DNA from: a virus | DNA: 31,289 nt | Strand: one strand, 5' to 3' | IMG/VR virus record: IMGVR_UViG_3300040801_001995 | Location: 1-31,289 of that record | Shown here: positions 1-23,594 of the stretch, piece by piece | Layout: the number at the start of each line of letters is the position of its first letter | Position numbering within the stretch: position 1 is the stretch's first letter | Translations under genes and position numbers: made by a program | The notes under the pieces: model-generated | What the model saw: the letters and a program-made list of their open reading frames with translations, nothing else | What the model was told of the DNA's origin: nothing | Databases searched by the model: none

Positions 1-3000
1 CGGACAAGTGCCTGGATCCTTTTTGGGGAGACTCCAAGGGCCTTTCCGAGCACGATAGCTGATTCGTGATCCCACGGATAAAATCTTTCTGCAGGCGCCT
101 TGTACTTCATTCCCATGCCCTCTATCGGCCTTCCGGTAAAGAAAACCTTGTTCATATATTGCTCGAGAATAGGTCTGGCGGCCTGAGGTACAGGATTAAA
201 TGCGAACGTGTCAAGAAGAGATTGTCCTATGAACCTCGTCAAATGCTTAGCCTCATTGTTACCCTTCATCACGTCGGCTGCAGCTGTCCATGCCGATGAC
301 CATATCACGCCGGTCTCAAATGGTTTTGGAATTCTAAAATGTTTATCACCTATCCAAAAATGATAGTATGAAAATTTCTCCCAATTCTCGAGCTCTTTAT
401 AGCGGTCATCGTCTGAGAATGCGGCCCATAATGCAATCGATGCTGCTGCGATGGAGGCGCCCTTCAGGGCGTACATTTTTGGATTTTCAAGCACTGCTGT
501 ACCCATCTTGTGAAGTCCCTGTATTCTCGCATTCAGGAACGGTATCGTTGCTGTTAGATACTGGATCACTGGACTCGCACCTTTTTTCTGAAAGTCCATT
601 ATGTCCCGGGCTTCAAAAGATGATTCGAGTATTGAATATCCTTCGCTCCGTCGTTTCGAATACAACGCCAACCTGGTAGCGTTTTCTGATGCTTCGGTCA
701 GGGTCTCCCAGAAACGCCATACTTTCGCCGGCGTATCGAGGATCCGCATCAGTGCGCCCCTGCTTTCTTTCTTTGCAATTTTCTTTGCATATTTTGAGAA
801 GACTTCTGGGCGATCCGCTTTTACGTAGCTTCCGACAAACGCATTACCGGACGCCATGTATTCAACGAAGTCCTGGTCCTTTCTGATTGTTTTTACAAAT
901 CCCTTTGCGGTATCCCAGAAAGGTTTAAATCCCTTGCTTATTGTATAAGTGTGAAGGGTGTCCCTTGTCGCATTCGCGGCCATGAAGCTTGGCGTTATCG
1001 TTGCGCCGAAAGTCAGTAATGCCTTCGGTACTCCGAGGATAGCCTGTAGCCACCCAGGAAGGAGCTTGTTGCTCTGAAGCGAAAGTGCCTGAAATAATTC
1101 AGGATCGTTAACCTTAAAAAACTGGGTCTTTCCGTTATCCTTAAATCCGAGGACCTCGATGTTATCTTTAGGATAGATAAACGTCGCCTTATTATCCTTT
1201 CCGGATTTAAATATTACAGTATCCTTCCATGGCACCGCTTCGACTGCCGCCTCTCCGGTTTCCGTCACGACGTCTTTAAGTTCCCTGAACGCCTGTCGCC
1301 TGGCATTATTGGCCATTGATTGCTTTATCAAGTGAGACCAGTTCGCGAGAATATTCTCGAGAGGATCACCGATCTGCCTCTTGGATCCCTTCAGCTTTTT
1401 GATCTGAGCGGATATGATCTTTTTTGTATTGACCGGCGCCTTGATAAATTCTGCCGTGCTCTTTTCATCCTCGAATATACGATAGAAAGGAACGTAGAAT
1501 TGATCTTTAAATTGAGCGACCATCGCTGGATCGAGGAGGCCAGAATCGATACCAATCTGCAATACGGAGTTATTGAATTCCTGGAACTCCCTGTTTAATT
1601 GACCCCAGGATTTTCCTGAATCTGCCCGTTTTCCTGTCCAAGAAAATATGCGATTTCGCTCCTCGGAGGTGAACATCGGTTTGTATTTTTCGTCCCTGGA
1701 GGATCTCGACTGGTCCCTCTGTGCAATCACCCAGTAAAAGAATTTTTCACCGTCCTTGCCGAGGTCCTTAAGCCATGGTATAAATCCTTCACCCTTTGTT
1801 CTTGTGGTCAAAACTCCTGAATTATCAAGGAATAATTTGCCATGTTCCATCATTGCATTGATCGATGACTGCACCCCAGGTATACTGCGATGCATCATGT
1901 ATGCAACCGACTTGGCGCCGGCCATCATTTTTAGCGGGTGCAATTTATCGACTGCTGCAGTGACAAAAGTTCCAGGCTTGTAATCAAGTTTGTCCTTCAA
2001 AGTGTCAAGTGTTTTCTTTTCCTTTCTCCCGACTCTTGACAATACCTCTGCCGTCCTATTATCTACTCTTTCGAATTCGATATCAAGGGAATTATCGCCA
2101 GGCTTTCGTCCTTTTCCAGGCTTCTTTCCGGGCTCTTTTCGCTGAGAAGCTCTCTTTTTATCAACTCCTCGACGTAATCCTTCTTGGTATTCTTGTCCTC
2201 GTTTCTTCGCATCTTCTATAACCTCCTCGCCTTTTTCTTTTCCCCAATATTCAATAATTGCTTCTGAATAATTCTCTACCGCCGCCTCGATACTTTCTGA
2301 CGACCCGAGTGATTCTGTATGTATTTCCGTAACCTCATTATGTGGCCATCCTTTTTCAGCAAACTTCTCCATGATATCTGCCATTTGAACGGCATCTTCA
2401 TCAGAAAATACAACTTGCTCGATACTCAATGTGCCGAGGTCTGGATTCATTACAACATTAAATTCCTTCAATCCTGCTGCGTTAAGATCGTTTACAAGTT
2501 TTTCCGGATCACCCTCATACTTGTTTAGCGCCTTGAACGTAAACATCTTTGCCTTCGTCCAGTTTAGCCATGTTGGATAGTCCATTTCATTTCTCGGCTT
2601 ATGGATTAGATAGGCTTCCCGTTGACCTCTCGACATCGCTATCTCGGACAGATAGGCACGCTGAGATCTTAATGGTCCATTTAGCTTTAGGCCTAAACCT
2701 GGCTCGGTCTTCCCTGATGTTGCCGTCTCAAATCTTCCAAGCGAATAATGCGCTCTACCGATAGTGATTTCAGAGTATTTATTTTGACCTGCGAGTATTT
2801 TCTTCATGTAACGCTCGAAGTTTTTCGCACGTTTTGGCATAGACCTTACGGCCTCAACAAGACTGAGGTCACCCTCTATCGACTCAACCATGTCGGTTAT
2901 ACCAATATTCGTCAATTCAGGGAAATCTTCAACTGCGATTTCATCGAATACCATCAACCACTTCTGGTTACCCATGGCTGCCGGCACCAACGCGCCCTGA

Positions 3001-6000
3001 TACTGTCCGGTGTTTCTGATAAGTTTGAAAAATATATTCGTCAATGAAGCTTCCGGTGCTTTCTTGTGCTCCGATCTCGCCCTGGCCCAGAATTTATAAA
3101 CGTCCTTTACTCCATCGTATATTTTGTAATTTTCAAGCTTGAACGTATGCGGCTTCCCTCCGGATCTAACATATGATTCTGGAATGTTTCCAGGCGAATA
3201 CATATAGACCATTGGTTGATAGGGCCAATCCTCGGTACCTCTTTTAATTCTCTCTCCGATGTCGTCCCTTGAATACGAATTATACTGAACCTTCCCATCT
3301 TTCGTGGCTGCCAGTACATAGTCCCCTTCCTTAAGGTCAGCTTTCGTGTAATGAATTCCGACTCCTAAGTCTGGCAATGTCGCCTTGTGGAATACATACG
3401 GAACGTGTTTACCCGGACTTACCTGGGACAAACCGATTATATCTGACACCTCTGCGCTCGGGGTCCTGAATTCAAACCATAGGGCGGCCTGTACGCCGGC
3501 AACCGGGATTCCAAGGTCATCTGAAACTTCGTATATATCCCTCGACACCTCTTCCTCAACCGCTGGATGCATGTTCCATCCGCCCTGAGGATTATCCTTT
3601 GTCGCGAGTACGTTATATCCCCAGCCCTTCGGCATATGCCTGTCAAGGACCAGAACATTTTTACTATTTGGATCCATTGCTGCGGCAAGGTATGGGCCAA
3701 TCTTTCTGCCAAATTGCTCCTGAATTTCTGCGATACCTTCCGGGTCTGTCCTTCCGAGGATATCGTCATGCTTGCCTTCCCAAATTGCCATGATTTTTGG
3801 CAGCTGTCCCTTTGATACCTTACGCGGACGCCGGCCACTCTCGAGTTGATTAATTGTCTCTGCCCATATTGCCTGCTGTGCCTGCGGAGATTTTCCTTCT
3901 CCAAGCAACCCTGATATGGCAATTATTCTTTTAAGCTTTGTTTCATCGACATCATCCTGGATGAACTGCCACATAAAATCCTTCCAGTCCTGATACCATG
4001 TTGCATATCGCTTGTTCTTAAGAACTATCTTCTTTATCTGCTTAAGCCTGGTCGGTCTATCTGTTGCGAAGATGGGTCCTTTTATGAGTCTGTTACCTTT
4101 TGAATCATAGAATTTCTTGATCGCCTTTCTGATTCCGGTAACAGGATCCTTGTACCATTTCTCGGTCTGCTTTCCCTGGTCTCCAGTGTCAAACAGGCTC
4201 GGTTTCGTGTCTTCGAATTGACCATATCTCAGCTTCCTTCCGATATAATAATTCTTAGATGTGTACCTGACAGTATATGGTTGAATTCCACCGACCTTCT
4301 CGCACTTCTTCACGAACTCAGGGTCGTTCAGGTCCGCCTTTCCGGTTGCAAGCTCCTCCCTATACTGAACAACTTTCTTAAAGTTATTATATTTCTTACG
4401 GTCTTTGTATAGTCTCTCGGCATGGCTGCCTATAGATTTAATCAATTCAGGAGTGACCGGTTCGCCGTTTAACTCGGTTTGTTTTTCGAGATACTTCCTG
4501 ACATTTTTCATTCCTTTCGCAGCCTTTGCGATATCAAATATTCCGTAATATGCTTTATGGTGTGAAAGAGACCCCTGTTCACCTGGAAGCTTTTGTCCTT
4601 TTTTTAGCTCTTCAGTTACCTGCTTCTCGAGCTCAGGCTTAAGGATCTTGCGCTCCTCGAATTCCTTGACGATTGACCTTGCCTTATCTGCCATTGACAA
4701 AACATCCTCGGTAGATGCATCGTTTCCGAGAATAAATCTTGCTCTCTGCTCAAACGACATCGCTTCGATATCTTCGTTTGTAAGGTCCTCTGCCGCCTTT
4801 TGTGTCAGCTGCTTTGTTCCGAATTCAAGAACATCGGCATAAAATTTCTGATGTAGCTTTTGATTCTTAAGCCATGATTTTTCTATAACGTTTTCATCAG
4901 AGTCAACCTCATTTGTTCCAAGCTGCTCATGAAGGGCGGTGCCTTCGTATGTTGCCAGAACATAAACGTTAACATGAGAAATGATATCAGAATGTTTTTT
5001 TAGAAACTTTAAAGTATTACTGTAGGTTTTTACAGTCTCGGTCCATAGATTTCCTGGCTTGTATTCTTTTATATTCTTATTGTCGTATACTCCTAAAGTT
5101 GAGAATCCGAATTCAGACGTCCTGTAAGAGTCGTACCCATTCACCTTCATCATCATCCTGACTTCTGGACTCTCGAGAACTTCCCAGTCTCCGTACCTCT
5201 CATTTCCTTCAAGGTCTGTCGGAAATTCTGGGTGTTTCTCCATTAACCTTTGAATTTCTTTATTCATGGTTTTTGGGTCTCTCGGATCCCAGGTCTTCTT
5301 TACTGTAACGTCGTACTGCTTTACCTTTCCGTGTTCCCTTGCGTACAATGGATCTTCTGTCAGGTAAGTCGCACCTCTACCCCTTGACCGATACAGACCT
5401 CCGCCCTTTGATCCGCGGTAGAATATTTTACCTTCGATTTTCTGAGACGGCTTTTTTGACTCAACGCCTGCGAGGCCGACCATTATATTTGGAACAAAGT
5501 TCATCTTTAGGCGTCGGATCTTTTCGGCTGCCTTCTCAATCATCTCGACGGTGTGAGGCTTATTGATCTTTCGAAGTATGTCATCGTTAATAGACTCTGC
5601 GCCAAGTTCAACGAATTTAATCCCTGACTCAATGAGGAAGTCGTCGCTCATTTTGAGAAACTGCGGTGCTGTTGTCTGAATAATAAATCCTTGGAAGTCC
5701 GGATTTACGGCCTCGATCTTTTTCCGGATATCGATAAGGCGGTCAAAGTTCTTTGCCTGGCCAAAAGTCTTATCATTTAAATAGACAAGTTTGTATTTAA
5801 GCTGTTTGAAGTTCTCGAGTTGATCATCGATTTGGGCGTCACTGGCTTCGACGACTTTCTTCGGTACCGTGCAGAATGCGCACCTGTGCTTACACCCGGA
5901 CGAGAGTTCTAATCTCGGTATTGTGCTCGAGCCCTTGAAGTGTCTATAATCTACACCGCTCTTGTACTTGAATCCCATTGACTCTGCGGCCTCCTGTGGG

Positions 6001-9000
6001 CTTCCCAGGAAGGTGGCTTTATCTCCAAAGTAGGTAGGCTCGACGTATCCACCAATCTTGACCTTGCTTCCATAGTCTGAGATTATCTCTTTAATAACGT
6101 CCTTATTGGCGTCCATTGCACTGAAGAATATATTCTCTCCATACCCAGCCTGTTCGATAAACTTCTTTGCCTCTGCAATATTTCTTACAACATAGACATC
6201 GGCATCAGGCATCGATTTCGAAAGGCGGCCTATCCATTCAGGAACTTCCCAGAAATCTGCAGGCCTGTCATAACCTTCCCTTTTTGAGTATAGAGTGTCA
6301 AAATAACTGTCACCCATTTGTGTCGCTTCTTCCCTGGCGAAGTTATTTGATACCTGCACGAGAAGCTGTCGACCCTTTCCGGACTCGATACCAATCGGTC
6401 GTAATAATACGTTTTTGACCGCCCTAAAGGATCCGCGGTCTGTTTCTTTCGACGCATCCGCGTGAGTTAGCCAAGCTTTGTTAAGGTATTTTTTAAGCGT
6501 TTCAGAACGTTTGGCTTGTTCTGCTTTACCCAGCTTGTTCCCTTCGACTGAACCAGACTGCTCAGCGACCGTATCAAGAAGCTTCTTTGCGGACCTGTCA
6601 AGTTTGATGTCTGCATTCCAAGAAGCTCTGAACAATCCTTTAATGATATCAACATCTTTTGGTATCCTCCTGTCAAATTTGTAATTACCGTTCCCTTTGT
6701 TTTCATATCCAATTGACTCCAATATGTTCCCGGACGCAAAATCCTTTGGGTCAATCTTGACCTCGCCCTTGCCAGACAAGGCGTTCATCATACCCTCGGC
6801 CGCCAGTTTATCGCCGGCAACTTCATTGGTATTTATCTGCTTTTCGAACATCGGAATGAGCTCTGCCTTCTGCTTCATTTCCTTTGTTATCGGTAGTATC
6901 CATCCTTCCACCGGTTTCGATTCGTATGAAACGCTAAACTCCGTGCCTTCATTCTCCATTTTCTGTAGGGCATCAATCGTATTTTCAATCTCGAGTCTTT
7001 CACCTGCAGAGAGGTCGTCATGCCCAGCCCTGTACAATAAGTACTCTTCGGTTTCTTCGAGAACAGTAGAGATAAGCTCTCCCTCATAATTCTCGAGAGT
7101 TCCCCATAGTCTTTGATTCTCATTTCTGTTTAAGACTTTTCTATCTCCGTTTGGATAAAAGAGTTCAATAGTGGCCTCTGCGTCTGCATCATGCCTTATT
7201 TCCTGCTCTATATAGGTTTGGTGAGGATTGTATTTTTGGTACTCCTCAGCCTCTGCCTCTGTTTTAAAATAAGCAATTACCTCATTTGTATCTGCGCTCT
7301 TTACAGCCCATGTTGCCTCTGAGCCCGAAACTATTGCGCTCTTAAATACCTTTGCTTTTCCCCACTTCTTTTTATTGAAAAATGAATTTGCAACCGCTGG
7401 AAGTATTTCATCGTAAAACTTAATCATACCCTCTCCACCGGACTCGAGGTCAAGGCCTTCCATTCGGATGCCCCCCTCTCTATCGTCAAGCATATCGAAC
7501 ATATCCTCGAGGTGGTCGGTAGCTTGGTATCTGTGATCAAACTCTTCGAGGTCTCCTCCAAGGTTATAAAGATACTCTCCGTTTGGATCCACGATATACC
7601 ATTTCATTTCACCGTCTTCATTTTCCTCTTGTATCGGAGTGTATTGTTCTCTTAAGGCGGACTCTTCGCTTACCTTATCGTAAAGTCTTTGGCCGACCTC
7701 GTCGCCAAGAAATTCTTGAAATTTTTCAAGGTCATGACCAGTATCCTCATTTAATACTTCTGTTCCACTAAGATTATATGCATACAGAGTTCCTTCCCCT
7801 GGAACGTATGTTACCTCACTTATATAATTTGTGAGATTGTATCTGTCTGCCTGGTCTTTCCCTGTGTTCCATGCGATAGCCGCCTTGCCCCTGTCGACCG
7901 CCATCCTAACCATACGTTTCAATACAAGGAGTGCCCACTTATCGGATCCTTTAAATGGCGCCTCTGGAGCCCTTTTACTTTGAGATGAATTTATAGTCCT
8001 AAGAGCGTATGCTATCGCTTCGTCCCGTCCGTCTGTAGATGGATAATATCTTGTTCCATCAACCTCAAACGGTAGCTCTACCATCCACATATCCTGGTTT
8101 GGCATCTTTGAGACAGTTGATCCTTCTGGTAACTCATTGACTCTTCCTGAATGCTCATTGATCCAATTAAGCGCAAGTTGCATTGCATCGTCTCTGCTCT
8201 TTGCCATAAACAGGTCTTGTCCAGCTACCGACTCTGGCAACTCAACAATCCACCTGTCGTTCCTCTTTTCAACGATTGTTCCTTCTGGTAACTCTTTGAC
8301 TACCTTTCCGCCCTTGTATCCGAACTTCCGACCTCTCTGGTGAAGGTCGCTCTGGACCTCTTCAACGAGTAGTATAGGATCTCCGTCTGGGTGAATTCTC
8401 TCGGTAGCCCTTGCATGGGCGATAACATTTTTTACTTCCTTCCAATGACCTCCCTCCATGTCTGCAACGCTCGGAGACTTGAAGAGAACTTCCATATAAT
8501 TATCATATGCACCAGGAGTAATATATCCTTCATACGAAACTCCGGTTTGTTCACTCAGCCTTGCCCTGTAGTCACTAACTTTCTTTTGGTTTTTGACTAC
8601 TTGATCGACATAGCTAAATGCCTGTTCGTCTGCATGCTCGATTATCTTAGCCTTAAGAGCACCGTCGTCAATAGGGAATTCTCGTCCTTCTCCGTATTTT
8701 CCACCTTTCAGAACGACGCTATTTACGTATGGTTGATTATTTCCTTGGAATACATTCCTTATTGAGATACCGTATCCGTTGTTAAGCGCATACGTCATCT
8801 TGGCGATGTCCTCTTCGATCGCTGGAACATCGATTCTCTCCTGTTGACCGCCCCTTGTTTCTCTTATATCTACCTCTATCTGGAGTGCATTATCTGCTAT
8901 ATATTTAAGTATCGCATCTTTGGTTACTTTCTTTTTGCCGTTTGCAATCTCCCAGTTATCAAGGTATTCGATAAGTCCAGACCACCTTAATTCCTCTTCT

Positions 9001-11663
9001 TTTATCTCGCCCTTTGTGACCCAGCTTAAAATCATGTTTTTAACCTGGCCGGCGGGTCCCCTGTTTGGAAGTTTAGATGTAAGAACGTCTGCCATCTTAC
9101 CTATCCAAACGTTTGACTTGTCCTGCTTCTCCTGGAGTTCTTGCTCTATATCCGCTATTGTTTCGGATCTCTTCGTCAACTCTTTGTACGTGACCCCTTT
9201 TGATGCACCCTTTTTGGCCTCCGTTTGAAGCTGAGCGAATAGGTCAACAAAGTAGTCTTCAGCCGCTTCTATTTCCTTCAATAGCTTTGAATACTGGTTA
9301 CCTCTTTTACTCCCAACGATCTTCTTTAATTTTATGAGAGCATTCTTGATATACTTTCTTAGTCTTCCGAAAAGATCTGGTTCCTGGACCTCGAGCTTTG
9401 CTAATAGTTTTCTCTGGAAACTCTTTCCGCTCGCCAAGTCTGATATTATATTGGCGTTAACTTCTTCTTGGATTTTTTCAGGATTGTTTCTATACAGGTA
9501 GGATAGCATTCCGTTGACATATTGATACTCTTCGCTATTCCTGTCAATATTATCGTCAATAAACTTATCGAGCTTTGCGTACAGGTCCGGTGCTGTCCTG
9601 CGCATGTCGTGGGTGAGCTCATGAAATATTGTCCCGGTGTTCTTTAGCTCTTCATCCTCAAAAAGTACGACTGCTCCGGTAACAGGTATTCTCGCACCGG
9701 AATACTCTCCGAGCGGGTCGAGCCTGTCTGACTGTACCTTTTCGTTTTTCCTGACAAAGAATACGGGTCTTTTATAAACATCTTCAACAATCTTCTTCCA
9801 TGCAAGCTGCACCGGTTTCAGATCGCTATCCTTTGATTGCTGCACGAAATCTTTTCCGTATTTAGCGACAAAGTTTCCAACCGAGTCAAGATGTTCTTTG
9901 TAATCTTCAACCGCAACCGATTCGGCGGCGACATCCTTTCCTCTCTCGATATCGTATGCCTTCTTCGCCTCGAGGGTCATCTGATCTTTGTGATATTGTT
10001 CGAGGTCTGTCTGTGGCTCCATGTACGTTTCAGTCTTCATGGCCCAGTCTGGGCGTGCTTCCGGTTCTGACAGAAAGGCTTTTCTATATCCCTCGAAATC
10101 ACCCTTGCCCCTTGCAAATTCCATCTCTTTCTTGGCGATATCTCTTGATTCTTTTCCAATCTCAGCAACAAATGTCGCCTTGTATGCAGGGGACTTTTCA
10201 TCTGTTATTGATATGGCGTGTTTCTTGTCCCCCGGTTTGAATCCGTAAAACTCTGCGCCATCGTCTTCTGGCCTCGTTTCAATCCTGTATCCGCCTGCTA
10301 ACTCTTCAGCTGATAATGCTACCTGCGAGAAGTTTTGACCACCACCAATAACAGTGTCCGGTCCAACGCCCATTTCTTGTTCTGGCATCATCGAGATAGC
10401 TTCCTCGATCGCCATTTGCTCGTCCTCTTCGATCCATCTCTGGCCGGCTTCATCGAGAAGTTTCTTTGCATCTATCTTTGAATTTATCGGATCCGGACTT
10501 ATCGCCGGCTTTGCTGGGTCATCGACAATATCAGATCCGGTTTCTTCGGCTTCTTTTGGTGGAGAAAGAAATTTACCTGCGGCGCCACCGAGACCACCGA
10601 GGGGAGCAGCTACCAGGCCGGCCCATAGGCCCTCTTCGAATTTCTCATTGATAAGGTTCTGCAAGTAATCTGCAGTTATATCCTCGTCACGCAGCCACTT
10701 TCCTGCCGTCTCTGTCAAGATCTCACTGAGGCTCTGTACGAACTCCTCCATACCCTCGGCCGCACCACCACCGAGGATCCTGCCGACATATGAGTCTGCG
10801 AACTGGGCGAACTTCTCGCCATTTTTAAATTTTGTTTTTAATCCCTTTTCTATTTTTTGAAACAGGCCTTTTGTTCCCGGCATCTTCTTGCCGAGGTTCA
10901 TCATACCTTTTGGTCCCTTAAGTATTGCTGTAGTGAGGAGGACCTCTATTGGCAATTGGATTGCTGTGTCGCCAATAGCGAGCGCCATCGACTCCATTGG
11001 AGTGTTACCCATTTCTCGAAACTTCATATACGATCCACCGTATATCTGGCCGCCTGCTGTAGCGGCTACGCCGGCCCATCCACCGAGGCCGCCGGCAACA
11101 TAATTCAATATTGTCTGAGGCGCCATCTGCGTCAGGTCCTCGAAATATTTAGTTGCGGTATCCTTTGTTTCACGCCTCTTCATATATGCTTTGTCAGGAT
11201 CAAAGAAGCCTTGTTCTTCTCCGTGCATCAACAATTTTCCGAGCCCGTATATTGGGTTTTGTATTGACCTCTGGACATCATAGGCATCTTGATACGACTC
11301 TGGAAGTGCCTTGATAGGATCCTGTGCGCCAATCCTGTCGAAGATCTCTCCACGGACTTCTTGCATCGATTTAGGTATCTGGCTGAAATATTTAGGGAGT
11401 GCTTTGACGCCTTCTTGTATAGCCTTCCACCCCTCGTAATCGGATGAAAATGCTTCTGGGTCTTTTATTGCTGGATCGACTGGGTCAACCTCTGACCAGT
11501 CTTGTTGGATAAGGTCTCCCCACGTCATTTGCTGTTGCTGAGTTAGTGGCGCCTGCTGTGCCTGTGGCGCATTGTATTCGGGGACCTCTGGTAATGCGGA
11601 TGTATTCTCCTGCGGTTCATCCTCTTGGGCGAGGATGCTCCAATTCTTAATCTCGTCTGCCAT
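1..11663 (-). CDS. Giant large polyvalent protein, at least 3,887 aa, 3' end outside window
   Basis: Starts at ATG 11663 behind an AGGGAG ribosome binding site, 30 bases after the previous gene; I translated all 3,887 codons to the left edge without a stop. Order of parts (residues): Gln-rich disordered start 1-60; Gly/Ala-rich hydrophobic stretches near 189-208, 229-248 and 349-363; zinc metallopeptidase with HELTH at 681-685; charged coiled coil about 750-850; a region with EEVQSD (1101-1106) and GRKFGY (1111-1116); a 53-residue tandem repeat 1124-1228; GGEGM..FYD at 1409; radical SAM region 1790-2260 with an ART-like insert; glycosylase-like region 2549-2750; ART/MuF-like region from 2769; basic linker near 3200; LPD38-like end from 3229. 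This mix is typical of phage polyvalent proteins, thought to be packaged in the virion and injected. Its place after tail and ejection-type genes fits that. The last codons resemble the usual end of LPD38, so little is probably missing. Function as a whole is inferred. Confidence 0.9.
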   Translation of the reverse strand, partial: MADEIKNWSILAQEDEPQENTSALPEVPEYNAPQAQQAPLTQQQQMTWGDLIQQDWSEVDPVDPAIKDPEAFSSDYEGWKAIQEGVKALPKYFSQIPKSMQEVRGEIFDRIGAQDPIKALPESYQDAYDVQRSIQNPIYGLGKLLMHGEEQGFFDPDKAYMKRRETKDTATKYFEDLTQMAPQTILNYVAGGLGGWAGVAATAGGQIYGGSYMKFREMGNTPMESMALAIGDTAIQLPIEVLLTTAILKGPKGMMNLGKKMPGTKGLFQKIEKGLKTKFKNGEKFAQFADSYVGRILGGGAAEGMEEFVQSLSEILTETAGKWLRDEDITADYLQNLINEKFEEGLWAGLVAAPLGGLGGAAGKFLSPPKEAEETGSDIVDDPAKPAISPDPINSKIDAKKLLDEAGQRWIEEDEQMAIEEAISMMPEQEMGVGPDTVIGGGQNFSQVALSAEELAGGYRIETRPEDDGAEFYGFKPGDKKHAISITDEKSPAYKATFVAEIGKESRDIAKKEMEFARGKGDFEGYRKAFLSEPEARPDWAMKTETYMEPQTDLEQYHKDQMTLEAKKAYDIERGKDVAAESVAVEDYKEHLDSVGNFVAKYGKDFVQQSKDSDLKPVQLAWKKIVEDVYKRPVFFVRKNEKVQSDRLDPLGEYSGARIPVTGAVVLFEDEELKNTGTIFHELTHDMRRTAPDLYAKLDKFIDDNIDRNSEEYQYVNGMLSYLYRNNPEKIQEEVNANIISDLASGKSFQRKLLAKLEVQEPDLFGRLRKYIKNALIKLKKIVGSKRGNQYSKLLKEIEAAEDYFVDLFAQLQTEAKKGASKGVTYKELTKRSETIADIEQELQEKQDKSNVWIGKMADVLTSKLPNRGPAGQVKNMILSWVTKGEIKEEELRWSGLIEYLDNWEIANGKKKVTKDAILKYIADNALQIEVDIRETRGGQQERIDVPAIEEDIAKMTYALNNGYGISIRNVFQGNNQPYVNSVVLKGGKYGEGREFPIDDGALKAKIIEHADEQAFSYVDQVVKNQKKVSDYRARLSEQTGVSYEGYITPGAYDNYMEVLFKSPSVADMEGGHWKEVKNVIAHARATERIHPDGDPILLVEEVQSDLHQRGRKFGYKGGKVVKELPEGTIVEKRNDRWIVELPESVAGQDLFMAKSRDDAMQLALNWINEHSGRVNELPEGSTVSKMPNQDMWMVELPFEVDGTRYYPSTDGRDEAIAYALRTINSSQSKRAPEAPFKGSDKWALLVLKRMVRMAVDRGKAAIAWNTGKDQADRYNLTNYISEVTYVPGEGTLYAYNLSGTEVLNEDTGHDLEKFQEFLGDEVGQRLYDKVSEESALREQYTPIQEENEDGEMKWYIVDPNGEYLYNLGGDLEEFDHRYQATDHLEDMFDMLDDREGGIRMEGLDLESGGEGMIKFYDEILPAVANSFFNKKKWGKAKVFKSAIVSGSEATWAVKSADTNEVIAYFKTEAEAEEYQKYNPHQTYIEQEIRHDADAEATIELFYPNGDRKVLNRNENQRLWGTLENYEGELISTVLEETEEYLLYRAGHDDLSAGERLEIENTIDALQKMENEGTEFSVSYESKPVEGWILPITKEMKQKAELIPMFEKQINTNEVAGDKLAAEGMMNALSGKGEVKIDPKDFASGNILESIGYENKGNGNYKFDRRIPKDVDIIKGLFRASWNADIKLDRSAKKLLDTVAEQSGSVEGNKLGKAEQAKRSETLKKYLNKAWLTHADASKETDRGSFRAVKNVLLRPIGIESGKGRQLLVQVSNNFAREEATQMGDSYFDTLYSKREGYDRPADFWEVPEWIGRLSKSMPDADVYVVRNIAEAKKFIEQAGYGENIFFSAMDANKDVIKEIISDYGSKVKIGGYVEPTYFGDKATFLGSPQEAAESMGFKYKSGVDYRHFKGSSTIPRLELSSGCKHRCAFCTVPKKVVEASDAQIDDQLENFKQLKYKLVYLNDKTFGQAKNFDRLIDIRKKIEAVNPDFQGFIIQTTAPQFLKMSDDFLIESGIKFVELGAESINDDILRKINKPHTVEMIEKAAEKIRRLKMNFVPNIMVGLAGVESKKPSQKIEGKIFYRGSKGGGLYRSRGRGATYLTEDPLYAREHGKVKQYDVTVKKTWDPRDPKTMNKEIQRLMEKHPEFPTDLEGNERYGDWEVLESPEVRMMMKVNGYDSYRTSEFGFSTLGVYDNKNIKEYKPGNLWTETVKTYSNTLKFLKKHSDIISHVNVYVLATYEGTALHEQLGTNEVDSDENVIEKSWLKNQKLHQKFYADVLEFGTKQLTQKAAEDLTNEDIEAMSFEQRARFILGNDASTEDVLSMADKARSIVKEFEERKILKPELEKQVTEELKKGQKLPGEQGSLSHHKAYYGIFDIAKAAKGMKNVRKYLEKQTELNGEPVTPELIKSIGSHAERLYKDRKKYNNFKKVVQYREELATGKADLNDPEFVKKCEKVGGIQPYTVRYTSKNYYIGRKLRYGQFEDTKPSLFDTGDQGKQTEKWYKDPVTGIRKAIKKFYDSKGNRLIKGPIFATDRPTRLKQIKKIVLKNKRYATWYQDWKDFMWQFIQDDVDETKLKRIIAISGLLGEGKSPQAQQAIWAETINQLESGRRPRKVSKGQLPKIMAIWEGKHDDILGRTDPEGIAEIQEQFGRKIGPYLAAAMDPNSKNVLVLDRHMPKGWGYNVLATKDNPQGGWNMHPAVEEEVSRDIYEVSDDLGIPVAGVQAALWFEFRTPSAEVSDIIGLSQVSPGKHVPYVFHKATLPDLGVGIHYTKADLKEGDYVLAATKDGKVQYNSYSRDDIGERIKRGTEDWPYQPMVYMYSPGNIPESYVRSGGKPHTFKLENYKIYDGVKDVYKFWARARSEHKKAPEASLTNIFFKLIRNTGQYQGALVPAAMGNQKWLMVFDEIAVEDFPELTNIGITDMVESIEGDLSLVEAVRSMPKRAKNFERYMKKILAGQNKYSEITIGRAHYSLGRFETATSGKTEPGLGLKLNGPLRSQRAYLSEIAMSRGQREAYLIHKPRNEMDYPTWLNWTKAKMFTFKALNKYEGDPEKLVNDLNAAGLKEFNVVMNPDLGTLSIEQVVFSDEDAVQMADIMEKFAEKGWPHNEVTEIHTESLGSSESIEAAVENYSEAIIEYWGKEKGEEVIEDAKKRGQEYQEGLRRGVDKKRASQRKEPGKKPGKGRKPGDNSLDIEFERVDNRTAEVLSRVGRKEKKTLDTLKDKLDYKPGTFVTAAVDKLHPLKMMAGAKSVAYMMHRSIPGVQSSINAMMEHGKLFLDNSGVLTTRTKGEGFIPWLKDLGKDGEKFFYWVIAQRDQSRSSRDEKYKPMFTSEERNRIFSWTGKRADSGKSWGQLNREFQEFNNSVLQIGIDSGLLDPAMVAQFKDQFYVPFYRIFEDEKSTAEFIKAPVNTKKIISAQIKKLKGSKRQIGDPLENILANWSHLIKQSMANNARRQAFRELKDVVTETGEAAVEAVPWKDTVIFKSGKDNKATFIYPKDNIEVLGFKDNGKTQFFKVNDPELFQALSLQSNKLLPGWLQAILGVPKALLTFGATITPSFMAANATRDTLHTYTISKGFKPFWDTAKGFVKTIRKDQDFVEYMASGNAFVGSYVKADRPEVFSKYAKKIAKKESRGALMRILDTPAKVWRFWETLTEASENATRLALYSKRRSEGYSILESSFEARDIMDFQKKGASPVIQYLTATIPFLNARIQGLHKMGTAVLENPKMYALKGASIAAASIALWAAFSDDDRYKELENWEKFSYYHFWIGDKHFRIPKPFETGVIWSSAWTAAADVMKGNNEAKHLTRFIGQSLLDTFAFNPVPQAARPILEQYMNKVFFTGRPIEGMGMKYKAPAERFYPWDHESAIVLGKALGVSPKRIQALV
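3..1979 (-). other. LPD38-like C-terminal region of the giant protein
   Basis: Residues about 3229-3887. Recognisable marks include FYWVIAQRD, then YVPFYR, then a hydrophobic run ending TPSFMAANATRDTL, IPFLNARIQGL, a membrane-like helix KGASIAAASIALWAAF near 3734-3749, and FRIPKPFETGVIW. These match my memory of Large Polyvalent protein associated Domain 38, the usual C-terminal region of phage polyvalent proteins. Its biochemical role is unknown. The hydrophobic helices suggest membrane contact or packing inside the virion, which is inference. Confidence 0.7.
3024..3359 (-). other. ART/MuF-C-like region of the giant protein
   Basis: Residues about 2769-2880. It begins GIHYTKADL, continues to MVYMYSPGNIPESYVRSG and ends at NYKIYDG. 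This follows the pattern of polyvalent ADP-ribosyltransferase/MuF-C-like regions (an HYS or HFS start, a vYlY strand, PE followed by an aromatic, then klYD). I cannot place a complete R-S-E catalytic set, so activity is uncertain; it may be a degenerate copy. A related-looking GRAHYSLGRF segment follows near residues 2969-2978. Confidence 0.45.
3414..4019 (-). other. Helical polyvalent-type region (DUF7178-like)
   Basis: Residues about 2549-2750. It contains ATWYQDW, IIAISGLLGEGKSPQAQQAIW, GRKIGPYLAAAMDP, VLVLDRHM and GVQAALWFEF. The order of an aSP-like segment, a K..pf..al stretch, a vDrwM motif and a final qAALW matches a family seen in phage polyvalent proteins that I recall as DUF7178. 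The name is from memory and unconfirmed. The architecture is all-helical; the function is not known to me. Confidence 0.45.
4884..6296 (-). other. Cobalamin-type radical SAM domain inside the giant protein
   Basis: Residues about 1790-2260. The [4Fe-4S] motif is CKHRCAFC (C1924, C1928, C1931; Cx3Cx2C), preceded by IPRLELSSG. The barrel continues with FVELGAESIND (GAES 2021-2024) and NIMVGLAG (2059-2066), and its last strand is VYVLATYEGTAL ending near 2244. Upstream, residues 1820-1900 look Rossmann-like (ADVYVVRN, ENIFFSAMDAN, VKIGGY), as in N-terminal B12-binding domains of class B radical SAM enzymes. The DxHxxG cobalamin ligand motif is not visible, so B12 use is doubtful. All three cluster cysteines are present, so catalysis is plausible; substrate unknown. 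Confidence 0.75.
5052..5459 (-). other. ART-like domain inserted in the radical SAM barrel
   Basis: Residues about 2069-2204 lie between NIMVGLAG and LWTETVKTYSNTLKFLKKH, segments that are normally adjacent in a radical SAM barrel. The insert reads FYRGS (2081-2085), a Gly/Arg loop, TYLTEDPLYAREHG (2099-2112), a YDVTV strand, and closes with NGYDSY..SEFGF then GVYDNKNIKEY. That follows the polyvalent ADP-ribosyltransferase layout (yRGs, then a TxdpxxA step, then gYD, then an IK end). Candidate catalytic residues are R2083, the T2099-T2102 step and E2184. The fold is inferred from motif order only. Confidence 0.55.
7980..8294 (-). repeat. Two tandem 53-residue repeats within the giant protein
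   Basis: Residues 1124-1176 and 1177-1228. Both copies start ELPEG, then (T/S)xVxK, W(I/M)VELP, a variable loop, RD(D/E)A, AL and IN. They interrupt the stretch between GRKFGY and the K-W-A-L-L..KRMVRMA helix that are usually neighbours in polyvalent proteins. The look is of a small beta-beta-alpha module that was duplicated. I do not recognise the module. Confidence 0.7.
9384..9746 (-). other. Zincin metallopeptidase domain of the giant protein
   Basis: Residues about 640-760. The helix TGTIFHELTHDMR carries the zinc motif HELTH (H681, E682, H685). About 50 residues later, EEVNANIISD supplies a likely third ligand (E733 or E734) with the alanine spacing of gluzincins. An upstream strand GAVVLFED is in the usual place before the active-site helix. 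Such peptidase domains are common near the N-terminus of polyvalent proteins and could cut the giant protein into working pieces after entry, or attack host proteins. The role is inferred. Confidence 0.75.
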
Positions 11664-15416: not shown

Positions 15417-17917
15417 TATCCCTTTTTGGGTTCAGCGCCTATATCATAAATAAAATCGTACATGCTCGGCGCAGGATCCCCACCCTCCTCACCATCAACC
15501 CATGACAGTTCGATCGATAGCTGGAATTCTGTGTATTCCCTCGCGAGGATCCTCTCCCTGTAGGTATCTCCGCTATCATCGTCTGACATTGTAAAGGTTT
15601 CGGTTGCGTTCGTATCGAGGTTTCCGTTTATGTAAATCTTTTTCGTAAGAGTGTAATCTGAGTTAGCAGAGGCCCTTAAAGTTAACTCCCTGAAATCTAA
15701 CAGGTTTCCTCCGTTACTAAACTCGGCCCTTGATTTCGATGTTATATAAACCTCTGACGTTGAGGCCTTGTCATACGTTATAGAATTGTCACTTTTGTAT
15801 ACACGTCCGTAAATATCACCGAGGTACTGTAAACTAAATGAGTCACCCGAATTCGCTTCAACCTCTGCAAAACAGGTCGGATATATTCCGGTGCCGGTGG
15901 CGCCTGTAGGGAACGTATCGAACGACCACGTACCTGACATAAGGTCATAAACTGGAAATATATTTGGGCTCGTCGCTCCGGATCCGGAAACGAGGCCAAG
16001 CCTGAGGACCATCTTGGATGAATCGAATCCTATCCACATTTTGTCCTCTTGTCCCCTTGTTATGCACTCAGCATATGAAGGCTCGAAGTAATTCTGAATG
16101 TCCTCAGATATCAATTTGACAACTCGACCATCGCACATAAACACTCCGTAATGACTGATGAAGAATGCTATCATCTGGACTGTTTCATCGCGCCTGGTAG
16201 TGAGTAGTGATCCATCGGTTACACAAACAGATTTTGGAGAGAACGTCCCAAACTTAGTTGATATTACAAGCTTTCCGAATGTTGACGGTGAATACCCCTC
16301 AAAGATCGTAAGGCATCCGCCTCCGGTTCCCTGCTCCTGCTGCCATACCATGAGCTCATTATGGAAATTCGCCATTGCGACAACTGGGTTTCTCCGACCA
16401 TCACCCGGGGACAGTATCGCGAAATCATCACCGTTCAGGATATTCGGCCGGCCCTTCCTTGAAACGTATAAGTCTCGCGGGAACTTTCCAAAGGTATAGA
16501 CCCCACGATCTTTCCATGACATCGAGACCCTCCCGGTCTCACCAAAGTCTGATATTTCAAAGAAACTTTGCGCTGTTATTCCAAATGTAACGCTATCCGA
16601 CATATCATCATCACATTTAAATCTAAGCCAATAAAGGTGGTTCACGGATCCATTAAAAGATCTCTTGTCGTAATCCTCTCGAATCCACGATACAACTCCA
16701 GACTTTGATATACCGCTGGTTCCGTCTTCGAGACCTGACACTGCTGACCATCCAGAGGCGTTCGTCCATAACTCTACCGCACTTATATCTGTCGATGCGG
16801 TCGTGTTCGGCGCAGACCCAGGATCTATAAATAGTGCCCAAACAGGGTCTGTCGTTGCGATATAGACATATGTTCCGGATGTCATCCCAGAAACATCGAC
16901 CGTTGACGCTGCATATGTCCGGAACTCGGCTGCCGTCTCTCCTTCGACCGCAACCTCTATGACATCGTAATCATAAAAGTCCATAACATTTGTAAGTGGC
17001 TGCCAGTCTCCTGTGTATGACACCTCGACGAAGGATACTGTCTCCGTTGCATCGCCGGCGCTTAGGTATAGCCTGTACCAGTAACCGGACTGACCAAACA
17101 TGAATGTCGGAACCTCGCCGGCGGCGGCCGTAAAAGTTATTGTGCCGTCCTGCTGGAGACCACTGGTTCCATCAGTACCGGTAGTTGCATCAACGAATCC
17201 CGTTCCATTAAACGACTGAACCTTTGCGGTCGTTGTGCCGTCGGCAACCGTAGCAAGGTCGAGGGTAAATGCATTTGCTTTGAAATCGCAACAAATATAT
17301 AGGCCGTCGTAATTCGCTATCGTATAGGTTAAAGTGGTCGTTGAGCTCGAGCTCTGATTATCTGTCAATGTATTCGTGTAATCGATTCCTCCATCGTTTA
17401 CCCTGACAGGTGTCGCGGCTGAGTTCTGCCAATAGCATGCTCGAGGAGCGGCGTCAGGTCCTGGCCATATCAGGTGCTGCATGCCGCCGTTTGAATGTAA
17501 GAGAGTATCGTCTATCTTTGAAAAGGATCCCGTAAAAGGGGACGCTGTTGATTCACCCGACCTTGCCGTATAGTCCATAACGACATCACCAAAGTCATTG
17601 GCACCAGCGGTTGTCGGTGGCTTCTCGTCTGCCTCGAGAACATCACCGTCTGAAAGTTGTGCGAAAAAGCTTAGGACTCCGCTTCGATCGCACCTGTACG
17701 AGTACAGATTTGATATCGCTGAAGCTTCGGCCGTCTGGTTGTGGGGAGTGAGTCCGCCCCTCATTTCAAGTGCTGTTCCATGCAGTCGAACGTTCTCGAG
17801 GTTTGAATATCCTCCAAGCGGAAGTGTTGGCTTATCGTAATATGACTGGGCTCCGCCGGCGGCCGGCGCCACTCCTGACCTGTTTAAAGCATATCTGTCT
17901 TGTGGTACTTTATTCAT
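15416..17917 (-). CDS. Putative tail nozzle/hub protein (833 aa)
   Basis: ATG 17917 overlaps the upstream stop by one base (TAATG); a TTG four codons earlier is possible but less likely. The N-terminus (YALNRSGVAPA, LPLGGYSNLENVRLHGTALEMRGGLT) resembles the start of podoviral tail accessory proteins that lay down a closed beta-propeller. The body is long, beta-rich and Asp/Thr/Gly-rich, with repeated blades such as FNGTGFVDATTGTDG and WTNASGWSAVSGLEDG. Length and order (portal, scaffold, coat, adaptor, this gene) match the gp10/nozzle position of P22-like phages. No enzyme motif is seen. The family call rests on order and composition. Confidence 0.6.
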   Translation of the reverse strand: MNKVPQDRYALNRSGVAPAAGGAQSYYDKPTLPLGGYSNLENVRLHGTALEMRGGLTPHNQTAEASAISNLYSYRCDRSGVLSFFAQLSDGDVLEADEKPPTTAGANDFGDVVMDYTARSGESTASPFTGSFSKIDDTLLHSNGGMQHLIWPGPDAAPRACYWQNSAATPVRVNDGGIDYTNTLTDNQSSSSTTTLTYTIANYDGLYICCDFKANAFTLDLATVADGTTTAKVQSFNGTGFVDATTGTDGTSGLQQDGTITFTAAAGEVPTFMFGQSGYWYRLYLSAGDATETVSFVEVSYTGDWQPLTNVMDFYDYDVIEVAVEGETAAEFRTYAASTVDVSGMTSGTYVYIATTDPVWALFIDPGSAPNTTASTDISAVELWTNASGWSAVSGLEDGTSGISKSGVVSWIREDYDKRSFNGSVNHLYWLRFKCDDDMSDSVTFGITAQSFFEISDFGETGRVSMSWKDRGVYTFGKFPRDLYVSRKGRPNILNGDDFAILSPGDGRRNPVVAMANFHNELMVWQQEQGTGGGCLTIFEGYSPSTFGKLVISTKFGTFSPKSVCVTDGSLLTTRRDETVQMIAFFISHYGVFMCDGRVVKLISEDIQNYFEPSYAECITRGQEDKMWIGFDSSKMVLRLGLVSGSGATSPNIFPVYDLMSGTWSFDTFPTGATGTGIYPTCFAEVEANSGDSFSLQYLGDIYGRVYKSDNSITYDKASTSEVYITSKSRAEFSNGGNLLDFRELTLRASANSDYTLTKKIYINGNLDTNATETFTMSDDDSGDTYRERILAREYTEFQLSIELSWVDGEEGGDPAPSMYDFIYDIGAEPKKG

Positions 17918-18669
17918 TAGAATATCCAATCATTGCCACTGCGAGACCCGCCTGAGAATCCCTTCGGTACCCTGACGGTCATCTGCTTACGGTTTTTACC
18001 TTGCCATCTCTGCGCCCTGGCTTCGTCGTCCCTGGCCTTTTTGTACTGATAGGTGTATCGATCTGAAAGCTTTGGGTCATACCACCTTTCAGAGGCCATG
18101 TTACATACTCTGCCGGCGACTCCCTTTGCGAGGACCTCGACCCAGTCATCATAGATAAAGTCAGGTACCTTTGTTGCCGTAAGTGCCGGCATCACAATAA
18201 CCTTTACCTGAAGGTTTGCAGTTCCTGCTGCTGTTGAATTCGGGGTCGGCAATAGGTATAGGGTGTCGTCCGGGTCAACATAAAAGAACGTCGGTGCGTC
18301 AGTCGTCTCGTTTACATATCCAGCTGAAAATCTTGAAGTGCTTGAAGGTAGTTCTTCCGATAATAGGTTTATGGGTTCAAGGTAGGTATATTGATTGTCG
18401 TCTGTTCCGTCCGCCTTGAACTTCGCCCAGTCTACCATGACGAGGTCTGCTGATCCGTCTGTCGTCGGGAGCGTAAGGGTATAATTGGCTTGATCTTCAA
18501 CAACGTCAATTTCAGTTAGGGTGTATCTCCAGATCCAGGTCTTCTTGCAGAAATCGCGAATGATCCTGACGATCTGTTTGTCTATGAACGTTGTGTTGGT
18601 TGACTTCGATGCACCCTTGATATAGAAACTTACCTCGTCCCTGAATGCCGTGATATTTTCACTTGCCAT
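17917..18669 (-). CDS. Head-to-tail adaptor-like protein (250 aa)
   Basis: It starts at ATG 18669 with TAGGAGG overlapping the previous stop. The N-terminal half is helical with a pattern typical of podoviral adaptors: an FRDEVSFYI helix, then IDKQIVRIIRDFCKKTWIWRY, where a Cys/Trp-rich helix leads into a beta section (YTLTLPT). A central beta part (FFYVDPDDTLYLLPTP) is followed by helices (DDWVEVLAKGVAGRVCNM) and a basic tail. The protein would bind the portal crown and receive the nozzle. Size is larger than P22 gp4 (166 aa) but in the range of tail-tubular-A-like adaptors. Similarity is by layout only. Confidence 0.6.
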   Translation of the reverse strand: MASENITAFRDEVSFYIKGASKSTNTTFIDKQIVRIIRDFCKKTWIWRYTLTEIDVVEDQANYTLTLPTTDGSADLVMVDWAKFKADGTDDNQYTYLEPINLLSEELPSSTSRFSAGYVNETTDAPTFFYVDPDDTLYLLPTPNSTAAGTANLQVKVIVMPALTATKVPDFIYDDWVEVLAKGVAGRVCNMASERWYDPKLSDRYTYQYKKARDDEARAQRWQGKNRKQMTVRVPKGFSGGSRSGNDWIF

Positions 18670-19995: not shown

Positions 19996-20916
19996 TTATC
20001 CGCGAGCGATGTACAGGTCGCAGAGGGCTTCGTCTTTTAGGACCTTGTAGCCATAAACGTTCAGGCCACGGACCAGGGTACCAAAGGTGGACTCGGCTCG
20101 AAGACTTTCCATCTTCGTCATCTGAGCGGCCCAGGAGATACCGGCTTTATGACCAGCGATGGCATGATAAGCGGTGTAGCTGCCGTCCGTCGCGGAGGTC
20201 AAAAGATTGCTGACATAAATAACCAGACGATCGATCATTCCGATGCGGCCATTGCGCATGATGGAAGTTCCGTCGCCGGCGAGGGAAGCGTCTTTAAGGT
20301 CAGACTTTTTAATCATACCGGCCATCCAAGGCGGTATAACTGCGTAACGGCTTTCCTCGGGCAGGTTCTGCTCGTCCATTACGGTTCCAACGTCGACCAA
20401 GAAATCCAGGACACTGGCTTTCGTTATAACCGCGGGAGACCCGGAAGATCCCAGGTCAATGTCGCCAGACTTAACGCCGGCGGTCGCGCCTTTGTTGCTG
20501 GAGTTGGCGTCAGAGTAAACGTCGCCGAGGAACTCTTCGTCCACGGTAACCTTCATTTGCTGGGAGGCATCGCGAGACCAAGAATCCATCAGGGCCACGT
20601 CGGTCTGATGCTTGTCGATGTCGTCACAAATAAAGTTGAAGTACTTTGCCTTGTCGATGGGCATTTCTTTCTTGGGGCTGTCCGGGCGTTGGATCTGCAG
20701 GGACTGGTTTTTGACATAGTCGCGGATGACGATATCCGGAACAGTTCGAACCTGAACCTTGTCACCTACGTCTTTGATTTCGCCTTCATAATCGGTGTTA
20801 CAAATGGCGGCGGATACGGTGGCGGCGTAAAACTTTACGAGCAGTTTACCGGACCATATTTCCGGGATGAAGTTTCCACTGTACTGAGGTGTTGATGCTG
20901 CTACTGAAATAGCCAT
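19996..20916 (-). CDS. Major capsid protein, HK97 fold, P22-coat type (306 aa)
   Basis: Forms the icosahedral shell. The N-terminus FIPEIWSGKLLVKFYAATV, then NTDYEGEIKDVGDKVQVRTVP and the KYFNFICDDIDKHQTD segment are the usual signature of P22-type coat proteins. The C-terminal part (RIGMIDRLVIYVSN, GHKAGISWAAQMTKMESLRAESTFG, VYGYKVLKDEALCDLYIARG) fits the A-domain and final strand. It follows a coiled-coil scaffold gene, the standard order. At 306 aa it is shorter than P22 coat (430 aa) and lacks room for a large I-domain. All 11 Arg codons are CGN, unlike most neighbours, as expected for very high expression. Its Shine-Dalgarno lies inside an inverted repeat. Confidence 0.88.
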   Translation of the reverse strand: MAISVAASTPQYSGNFIPEIWSGKLLVKFYAATVSAAICNTDYEGEIKDVGDKVQVRTVPDIVIRDYVKNQSLQIQRPDSPKKEMPIDKAKYFNFICDDIDKHQTDVALMDSWSRDASQQMKVTVDEEFLGDVYSDANSSNKGATAGVKSGDIDLGSSGSPAVITKASVLDFLVDVGTVMDEQNLPEESRYAVIPPWMAGMIKKSDLKDASLAGDGTSIMRNGRIGMIDRLVIYVSNLLTSATDGSYTAYHAIAGHKAGISWAAQMTKMESLRAESTFGTLVRGLNVYGYKVLKDEALCDLYIARG

Positions 20917-22796: not shown

Positions 22797-22918
22797 TTGA
22801 ATCTCCTCCCAAGTTTAAATATTAATGTTTTATAGTTATAACAGTACTTTATGTCTGATGCATAGTGAATGCATCCACGACACTGCTCTATCCTCTTTTT
22901 GTAATCCTCATACCTCAT
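22754..22918 (-). CDS. Possible small CxxC protein overlapping its neighbours (54 aa)
   Basis: The frame begins at ATG 22918 inside the last codons of the sulfotransferase gene and ends 43 bases into the 73-aa gene in another frame. It fills what would otherwise be a 111-base gap. It reads MRYEDYKKRIEQCRGCIHY with C13, C16, C26 and C42, followed by a basic end. Four cysteines in this spacing could bind zinc, and the start sits like a coupled start. The weak ribosome binding site and long overlap leave real doubt. Confidence 0.42.
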   Translation of the reverse strand: MRYEDYKKRIEQCRGCIHYASDIKYCYNYKTLIFKLGRRFKCRKTRETQKLRWY

Positions 22919-23594
22919 ACCCGCATTCTCTAATAAAATCAGCATGTTTTGTGAAATCGTAATCCATCCTGGCATGATCTCCCATTACACCCTTCCTGAG
23001 GTGGGCGTCTGGCTTTTCGACACCTGGCCGCCTCTTGGTCTGCCTCTCGAAGTCTGCAGATTGCAGGCATGAATTGACAATTGAATTGCTGTTGTCGAGT
23101 CCTAAGTTGCTGAATAAATTCTGTATCGTTACAAATGGCGCGATATGCAGATCCTCGTACTTAACCATATTGAACCGTCGACACCTCATGTACGGTGCAG
23201 CATAAGTCCAGTATGTTTTAAGCTTCGACATGACGGACGCGGGATTAGCGTTTGCGCCGGCGTTCATCCACGGCTTGGTACCAAAATGATGCGATGCAAC
23301 ACTATCTCGAGGATCCCTTACCATAAATACGATGTTGGCTGCACTGCAATACAGCTGCCATATATCAAGGTGCTTGGCGTCAAGGGGCGCCTTTGTTAAC
23401 ATCATCTTTCCGCTACTAAACGTATCCGGAAACTCGTCCTGAAGAACTTCCTTAATATTGACACTGAAATTCCAGTTGCGTAATATAACAGTTTCACCAT
23501 TCGGTGTAACGACATCCGGATGACTGCCGATTATCTTTTTGATCCAGGATGTTCCACCCCTGGGAAATCCTACTATGTGAGTCCAATTAATCAT
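22908..23594 (-). CDS. PAPS-dependent sulfotransferase (228 aa)
   Basis: Transfers sulfate from PAPS to an acceptor hydroxyl or amine, probably in the cytoplasm. The 5'-phosphosulfate loop is GFPRGGTSW (9-17), the 3'-phosphate site is VFMVRDPRDSVASH with R93 and S98, and the C-terminal RKGVMGDH (200-207) matches the RKGxxGD(W) motif that covers the cofactor. VKYEDL (144-149) is also conserved in the family. The likely start follows AGGAGATATC, 8 bases after the glycosyltransferase stop, so the two act as a pair. At 228 aa it is compact but has all cofactor motifs. Acceptor unknown: virion glycan, host surface glycan or small molecule are all possible. Confidence 0.88.
   Translation of the reverse strand: MINWTHIVGFPRGGTSWIKKIIGSHPDVVTPNGETVILRNWNFSVNIKEVLQDEFPDTFSSGKMMLTKAPLDAKHLDIWQLYCSAANIVFMVRDPRDSVASHHFGTKPWMNAGANANPASVMSKLKTYWTYAAPYMRCRRFNMVKYEDLHIAPFVTIQNLFSNLGLDNSNSIVNSCLQSADFERQTKRRPGVEKPDAHLRKGVMGDHARMDYDFTKHADFIRECGYEV

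Follow-up and report, generated by a model that had tools for sequence, protein, structure and literature searches.

A recurrent radical SAM cassette in giant polyvalent-type phage proteins, split in one phage by a putative ADP-ribosyltransferase-type domain

Polyvalent proteins of phages are encoded near the late genes and are inferred to be injected into the host, and the LPD38 domain is listed as phage-only, according to the available text of their description (Iyer et al., 2017, PMC5512222). The virion RNA polymerase (vRNAP) of phage N4 is modelled as unfolded during ejection in the available text of PMC12633501. Here, a protein related to such systems is described in the 31,289-nucleotide virus record IMGVR_UViG_3300040801_001995, which was analysed as a whole and is called the window hereafter. 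The largest gene of the window, a single open reading frame (ORF) at 3..11663 on the minus strand, encodes a giant polyvalent-type protein of at least 3887 amino acids (aa), the C-terminus of which lies beyond the left window end. Within it lies a radical S-adenosylmethionine (radical SAM, rSAM) cassette (4800..6413, minus strand, residues 1751–2288) that is common to about 45 otherwise dissimilar phage ORFs. We give an even chance to the reading, termed rSAM-PolyVal, that giant polyvalent proteins, probably packaged in the virion and ejected, carry a putatively competent rSAM module that early in infection targets a nucleic-acid base or nucleotide.

Pfam Radical_SAM (PF04055) matches residues 1919–2066 of the giant far above chance level (E=4.3e-14; score 53.5 bits, cut-off 29.5), and this family and LPD38 are the only ones matched when the whole giant is searched against Pfam. 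The original prediction had placed an rSAM barrel at 4884–6296; these coordinates are correct, correspond to residues 1790–2260 of the ORF and lie on the minus strand. All of the motifs named there are present, including the cysteines C1924, C1928 and C1931 in CKHRCAFC (5871..5894, minus strand), which is a CxxxCxxC [4Fe-4S] cluster motif invariant in the family, as well as GAESIND (2021–2027), NIMVGLAG (2059–2066) and EGTAL (2240–2244). On the minus strand, the cassette consists of a DFWExPxW motif with a Rossmann-like domain (FSAxDxNK ... VGGY; 5934..6275, residues 1797–1910), a first barrel part up to the GxIxG strand NIMVGLAG (5466..5933, residues 1911–2066) and, beyond an insert, the last barrel part with a conserved tail (WTET ... 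HVNVYVLATYEGTAL ... DENV; 4800..5051, residues 2205–2288), as read from the alignment to insert-free relatives. In an AlphaFold2 model built from 37 homologues, the predicted local distance difference test score (pLDDT) is ~83–95, ~92–99 and ~76–97 in these three parts, respectively, and a partial TIM barrel around the three cysteines was found with pLDDT >90, so the original prediction withstands the refutation test that it set itself. The top Foldseek matches in the PDB are all rSAM enzymes (TsrM, AprD4, MtaB, OxsB, CysS, MiaB and RimO; E 1e-9 to 1e-8) that carry an N-terminal Rossmann-type domain or are close cousins. The alignments to TsrM and AprD4 span 336–375 columns and exceed the barrel alone, so the N-terminal domain is aligned as well. 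Profile comparison with PDB sequences returned TM_1862/RimO (1.5e-9 to 2.5e-9) and AprD4 (8e-7). A zinc-knuckle reading of the cysteines is ruled out by the fold and family evidence.

Scans of viral contigs detected 46 loci at first and 68 later, from which 42 distinct sequences were aligned and 37 members were scanned with subfamily models. The CxxxCxxC motif is kept in 42/42 distinct sequences and 68/68 loci, and the family shares the signatures DFWExPxW, Yx[ND]DKTFG, FxGFxxQT and ExGxExxN. Forty-seven copies, the window included, are embedded in ORFs of 1,113–4,989 aa, in contigs of which some are nearly identical to each other. About 18 others stand alone as proteins of 383–439 aa, and a few more are truncated by contig ends. 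The free-standing copies separate from the embedded ones in the phylogenetic tree, with weak support (92/53). When the window giant was mapped by blastp against all others, residues 1750–2288 were common to about 45 ORFs, and other segments to six at most. The shared stretch matches the full length of the free-standing proteins of L038 and L042, indicating that the cassette is a complete enzyme. The family was not found in 50,697 isolate phage records, which returned only other rSAM proteins at 21–26% identity, and a scan of species genomes gave one weak match. A match to a Mesorhizobium plasmid (23%) proved to be an ordinary cellular rSAM protein. The family is widespread in viral contigs and without an isolate representative. 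The original prediction regarded rSAM chemistry as outside the usual polyvalent repertoire. The main text of the polyvalent-protein paper, as available, does not name it and has zero uses of the word "radical" (PMC5512222). The cassette is recurrent and no one-off.

The cassette is under strong purifying selection. Compared with L001, the nearest relative, the rSAM region of the window phage is 85% identical, with a non-synonymous divergence (pN) of 0.10 and a synonymous divergence (pS) of 0.77 at saturated synonymous sites, whereas the N-terminal and C-terminal parts of the giant are 55% and 74% identical, making the rSAM region its best-conserved part. Between L018 and L021, the corresponding rates in the rSAM region are dN 0.008 and dS 0.16. 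These low non-synonymous values relative to the synonymous ones favour a working enzyme and not a relic. Beyond what had been predicted originally, the rSAM module recurs as a cassette under selection in otherwise unrelated phage giants and, in the window phage, is split by an inserted domain of putative ADP-ribosyltransferase (ART) type.

A putative virion location of the rSAM giants is well motivated by gene order and by C-terminal homology to virion-type giants. In the window, genes for a portal / head-tail adaptor (29063..31216; phrog_332 E=6e-40), a major capsid protein (19996..20916; phrog_267 E=3e-53; 49% identical to that of Rhizobium phage RHph_TM3_14A) and a virion structural protein (17917..18669; phrog_437 E=2e-20) are located upstream of the giant, all on the same minus strand. 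In all of the records with both a portal match and a giant rSAM ORF (10/10), the two share a strand and the giant is the downstream one, as expected for virion proteins. The C-terminal 700 aa of the window giant share homology with an ORF of an Aeromonas phage, for which the annotation is putative virion structural protein, and with gp25 of Escherichia phage PTXU04 (29%), the knockdown of which causes a large drop in plating efficiency and which is essential for infection (PMC11879866). The assignment to the polyvalent type made originally is borne out by LPD38 at the C-terminal end (3..410, minus strand, residues 3752–3887, cut by the window end; PF18857 E=4.8e-28). A HELTH motif of the HExxH zincin-type metallopeptidase kind (9597..9629, minus strand, residues 679–689) was also read from the sequence, as a motif only, and this region has no Pfam match. 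It is conceivable, though unlikely, that the giant is not injected and is instead a head-morphogenesis or late cytoplasmic protein, with the rSAM module working in the producing cell. Such a role would suit the free-standing versions, which lie outside the structural module (in L042, the portal is on the other strand). The late-module position in 10/10 records, LPD38, the HExxH motif, the homology to giants with a virion-protein annotation and the published polyvalent-protein model (PMC5512222) argue for injection.

Within the rSAM superfamily, the closest architecture is AprD4-like, with a single cluster and a degenerate Rossmann domain. That a degenerate B12-type Rossmann domain precedes the barrel, as proposed originally, agrees with the Pfam, AlphaFold2 and Foldseek results and with the missing DxHxxG motif, which is absent from the window protein and likewise from all 42 family sequences. 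The triad cysteines are the only ones conserved across the 42 sequences, which points to an enzyme without a second cluster. Models of B12-binding rSAM families (PhpK, HpnJ and ladder-B12) match nearly all 37 members, far under their cut-offs, and the NCBIfam AprD4 model matches only 18/37. Lacking DxHxxG, second-cluster cysteines and scores at the cut-offs, the family is probably neither a member of MiaB/RimO nor a canonical B12 methylase. TsrM binds cobalamin without a DxHxxG motif, and the family may also bind it without this motif. A cobalamin-dependent (class B) rSAM methylase acting on a nucleobase, a protein or a small molecule would account for the matches to the B12-binding models and for the fold alignments, in which TsrM, OxsB and CysS rank among the top matches and those to TsrM and OxsB reach across the N-terminal Rossmann region. 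To our knowledge, AprD4 does not use B12, and it fits equally well; together with the absence of DxHxxG throughout the family, this makes such a methylase rather improbable.

The neighbours of the free-standing copies include enzymes of DNA and RNA. In L189, the free-standing rSAM gene is located among genes for a DNA polymerase A-like fragment, a gp32-like single-stranded DNA-binding protein and RecA. In L205 (9156–11101 of a contig of ~291 kb), it shares a few bases with an overlapping gene for a D12-class DNA adenine methylase, which suggests translational coupling, and it lies near an RNA ligase gene in L207 and a helicase gene in L198. The RecA gene of L189 (12952–14211), near the rSAM gene, is split by an intein-like domain. 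DUF7178 genes (L043:1463-2110; L042:5964-6584; PF23802 members occur in about 80 loci) lie within 10 kb of the rSAM gene in L042, L043, L195, L197 and L198, and are adjacent or nearly so in L042, L043 and L195. DUF7178 is predicted to adopt an HhH-GPD 8-oxoguanine DNA glycosylase-like fold, as its AlphaFold2 model (pLDDT 92) matches the 8-oxoguanine glycosylase AGOG best in the PDB (probability 0.96, template modelling score 0.46) and SsOgg with a score of 0.50, both with weak E-values. It carries a conserved TxDxH motif, and one member was annotated "glycosylase" by its depositor; a sequence-profile comparison with the PDB gave no match to HhH-GPD proteins. DUF7178 occurs in 17/41 rSAM records by hidden Markov model search and in 153/50,697 isolate phages by tblastn, methods that differ and thus yield no ratio. 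The window giant itself contains a divergent DUF7178-like region (3264..4169, minus strand, residues ~2500–2800), recognised by homology to regions of L002, L003 and L007; PF23802 matches two of these regions (E=2e-7 and 4e-6), in both cases under its curated cut-off.

The link of DUF7178 and rSAM to nucleic acid is suggestive only. Because the free-standing neighbours are DNA or RNA enzymes and DUF7178, and the window giant has a DUF7178-like stretch, a nucleic-acid base or nucleotide is our best guess for the rSAM target, about as likely as all other targets together. The module could also modify a host or phage protein, like the ART and GNAT domains of polyvalent proteins, in line with the ART-PolyVal domains often carried by giants with rSAM (9/41 records) and the GNAT or NUDIX domains held by some of them. 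No recognition element of the kind used for ribosomally synthesized and post-translationally modified peptides and no SPASM domain was seen, and nucleic-acid enzymes adjoin the free-standing copies, so a protein target appears to be a minor possibility.

The original prediction took the residues between NIMVGLAG and EGTAL as one barrel. Both motifs stand, but residues 2067–2204 form a separate inserted domain of 138 aa (5052..5465, minus strand), which is found in the window phage only and is absent from every relative aligned, including the 85%-identical L001. The insertion site is the loop after the GxIxG strand, which is already longer in the nearest relatives. Direct comparison of the insert with ART profiles gave no match in Pfam or the PDB, and hhalign comparison with local ART-PolyVal domains stayed at the level of shuffled sequences. 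An alignment-guided scan led to a domain in L140 that shows 29% identity with the insert (E=1e-8; pairwise E=4e-10) and that is itself ART-PolyVal (PF18760 E=2e-15, above cut-off). Since the insert is homologous to this domain, it represents, by transitive homology, a putative ADP-ribosyltransferase-type (ART-PolyVal) domain. The L140 ORF is polyvalent and exceeds 2,770 aa, with the ART domain closest to the insert, a second ART-type region recognised by eye and an LPD38-like end. ART-PolyVal domains occur elsewhere in 9/41 rSAM-bearing records, and a donor of this type is therefore common in rSAM giants. An assembly chimera is an unlikely source, as the insert is in frame, is placed at a loop and has a GC content of 44%, like its flanks. 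Found nowhere but in the window, the insert splits the barrel and might be inactivating the rSAM enzyme of this phage, leaving only the ART to matter. We consider this quite improbable, with the family-invariant positions (cluster, glycine-rich and acidic motifs) intact in the window and the insertion point in a loop already extended in the nearest relatives.

A methylthiotransferase of the MiaB/MtaB/RimO type, which would act on tRNA or a ribosomal protein and retune host translation, is very doubtful: TIGR00089 (MiaB/RimO) is matched by 37/37 scanned members, RimO/TM_1862 are the best PDB profile matches and the top folds include MiaB and MtaB, but the TIGR00089 scores are far under the cut-offs (~32–33 bits for the window against 251), no conserved cysteine could hold a second cluster, and the free-standing proteins end ~45 residues past the last strand, with little room for a TRAM domain (no search aimed at TRAM was made).

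We tentatively propose, with somewhat less than even confidence, that phages deliver an rSAM enzyme with their DNA in a giant ejected protein, that its cluster is built in the host after entry, and that it performs radical chemistry on nucleic acid of host or phage within the first minutes of infection, with, in the window phage, a putative ART domain nested in the barrel. The giant would probably be unfolded as it enters the host along with the DNA. Ejection in the unfolded state, as modelled for N4 vRNAP, would carry in no assembled cluster, and the oxygen-sensitive Fe-S enzyme inside a virion that seemed remarkable in the original prediction need not follow. The zincin-like HExxH domain (residues 679–689) may cut the giant and free the module, and the host machinery would load the [4Fe-4S] cluster after entry, so that an oxygen-sensitive virion enzyme would no longer be a puzzle. 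The enzyme would then reductively cleave SAM to a 5'-deoxyadenosyl radical, and its chemistry, of the degenerate-B12-domain kind as in AprD4, may early in infection be directed at a nucleotide or a base of nucleic acid. In the window phage, two potential effector activities, rSAM and ART, would be nested in one module. Several points weigh against this proposal. The putative virion placement of the rSAM giants rests on gene order and homology, and in PTXU04 the only proteins identified by peptide fingerprinting were gp7, gp10, gp11 and gp12 (PMC6563267). The substrate is a guess, and only the free-standing branch supplies its nucleic-acid context. Giants that lack rSAM commonly carry DUF7178 too, which weakens it as a specific rSAM partner and makes the partnership non-specific. 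In the window phage, the ART insert, with pLDDT <50 across it in the AlphaFold2 model, might disturb the barrel.

The window giant joins LPD38, rSAM, ART, a divergent DUF7178-like region and a HExxH motif, and fits a polyvalent chain that combines LPD and catalytic domains. Uncut relatives of 3.8–5.0 kaa are present in other contigs. Residues 1080–1113 (8325–8426, minus strand), VIAHARATERIHPDGDPILLVEEVQSDLHQRGRK, resemble a recurrent phage megaprotein motif and have no Pfam match. Two further ORFs in the structural module have no PHROGs match: the start of one (22908–23594; GFPRGGTSWIKKIIGSHPD) resembles a sulfotransferase, and the other (23603–24646) resembles a glycosyltransferase.

If the proposal is true, a new chemistry, that of the 5'-deoxyadenosyl radical, would join the known virion-borne effectors of phages, and the question would arise how an Fe-S enzyme survives passage through the tail channel or is rebuilt after it. 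The nested ART domain shows one mode by which giants grow, in which a loop of an existing enzyme domain takes up a second one, and the free-standing rSAM branch is tied to DNA and RNA enzymes and to DUF7178, with its predicted glycosylase-like fold. Among known systems, PTXU04 gp25 is essential and shares the homologous C-terminal part (29%), but it has 2,198 aa and no rSAM domain was detected in it. Free-standing phage rSAM proteins of the COG1032 type in BFVD, such as A0A6J5LFT0, share the barrel and the B12-type N-terminal domain (Foldseek E=1.3e-10); however, the identity is only 16%, and they are single-domain proteins outside giants. AprD4, an rSAM diol dehydratase (6fd2), has the same degenerate Rossmann N-terminal domain, barrel and one cluster (fold E=1.3e-9, profile E=8e-7), but is ~15% identical to the cassette, belongs to a small-molecule antibiotic pathway and has an NCBIfam model that reaches 18/37 members. 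The N4 virion RNA polymerase of the Schitoviridae is likewise an ejected giant (~3,500 aa) with a HExxH domain, whereas its catalytic core is an RNA polymerase and no rSAM domain is reported in the available text (PMC12633501). The polyvalent proteins of Iyer et al. (2017, PMC5512222) resemble the window giant as giant multidomain late-module ORFs with LPD38, HExxH, ART-PolyVal and DUF7178-like regions; in contrast to that repertoire, in the main text of which, as available, rSAM goes unnamed, the window giant has an rSAM domain as its central and best-conserved module.

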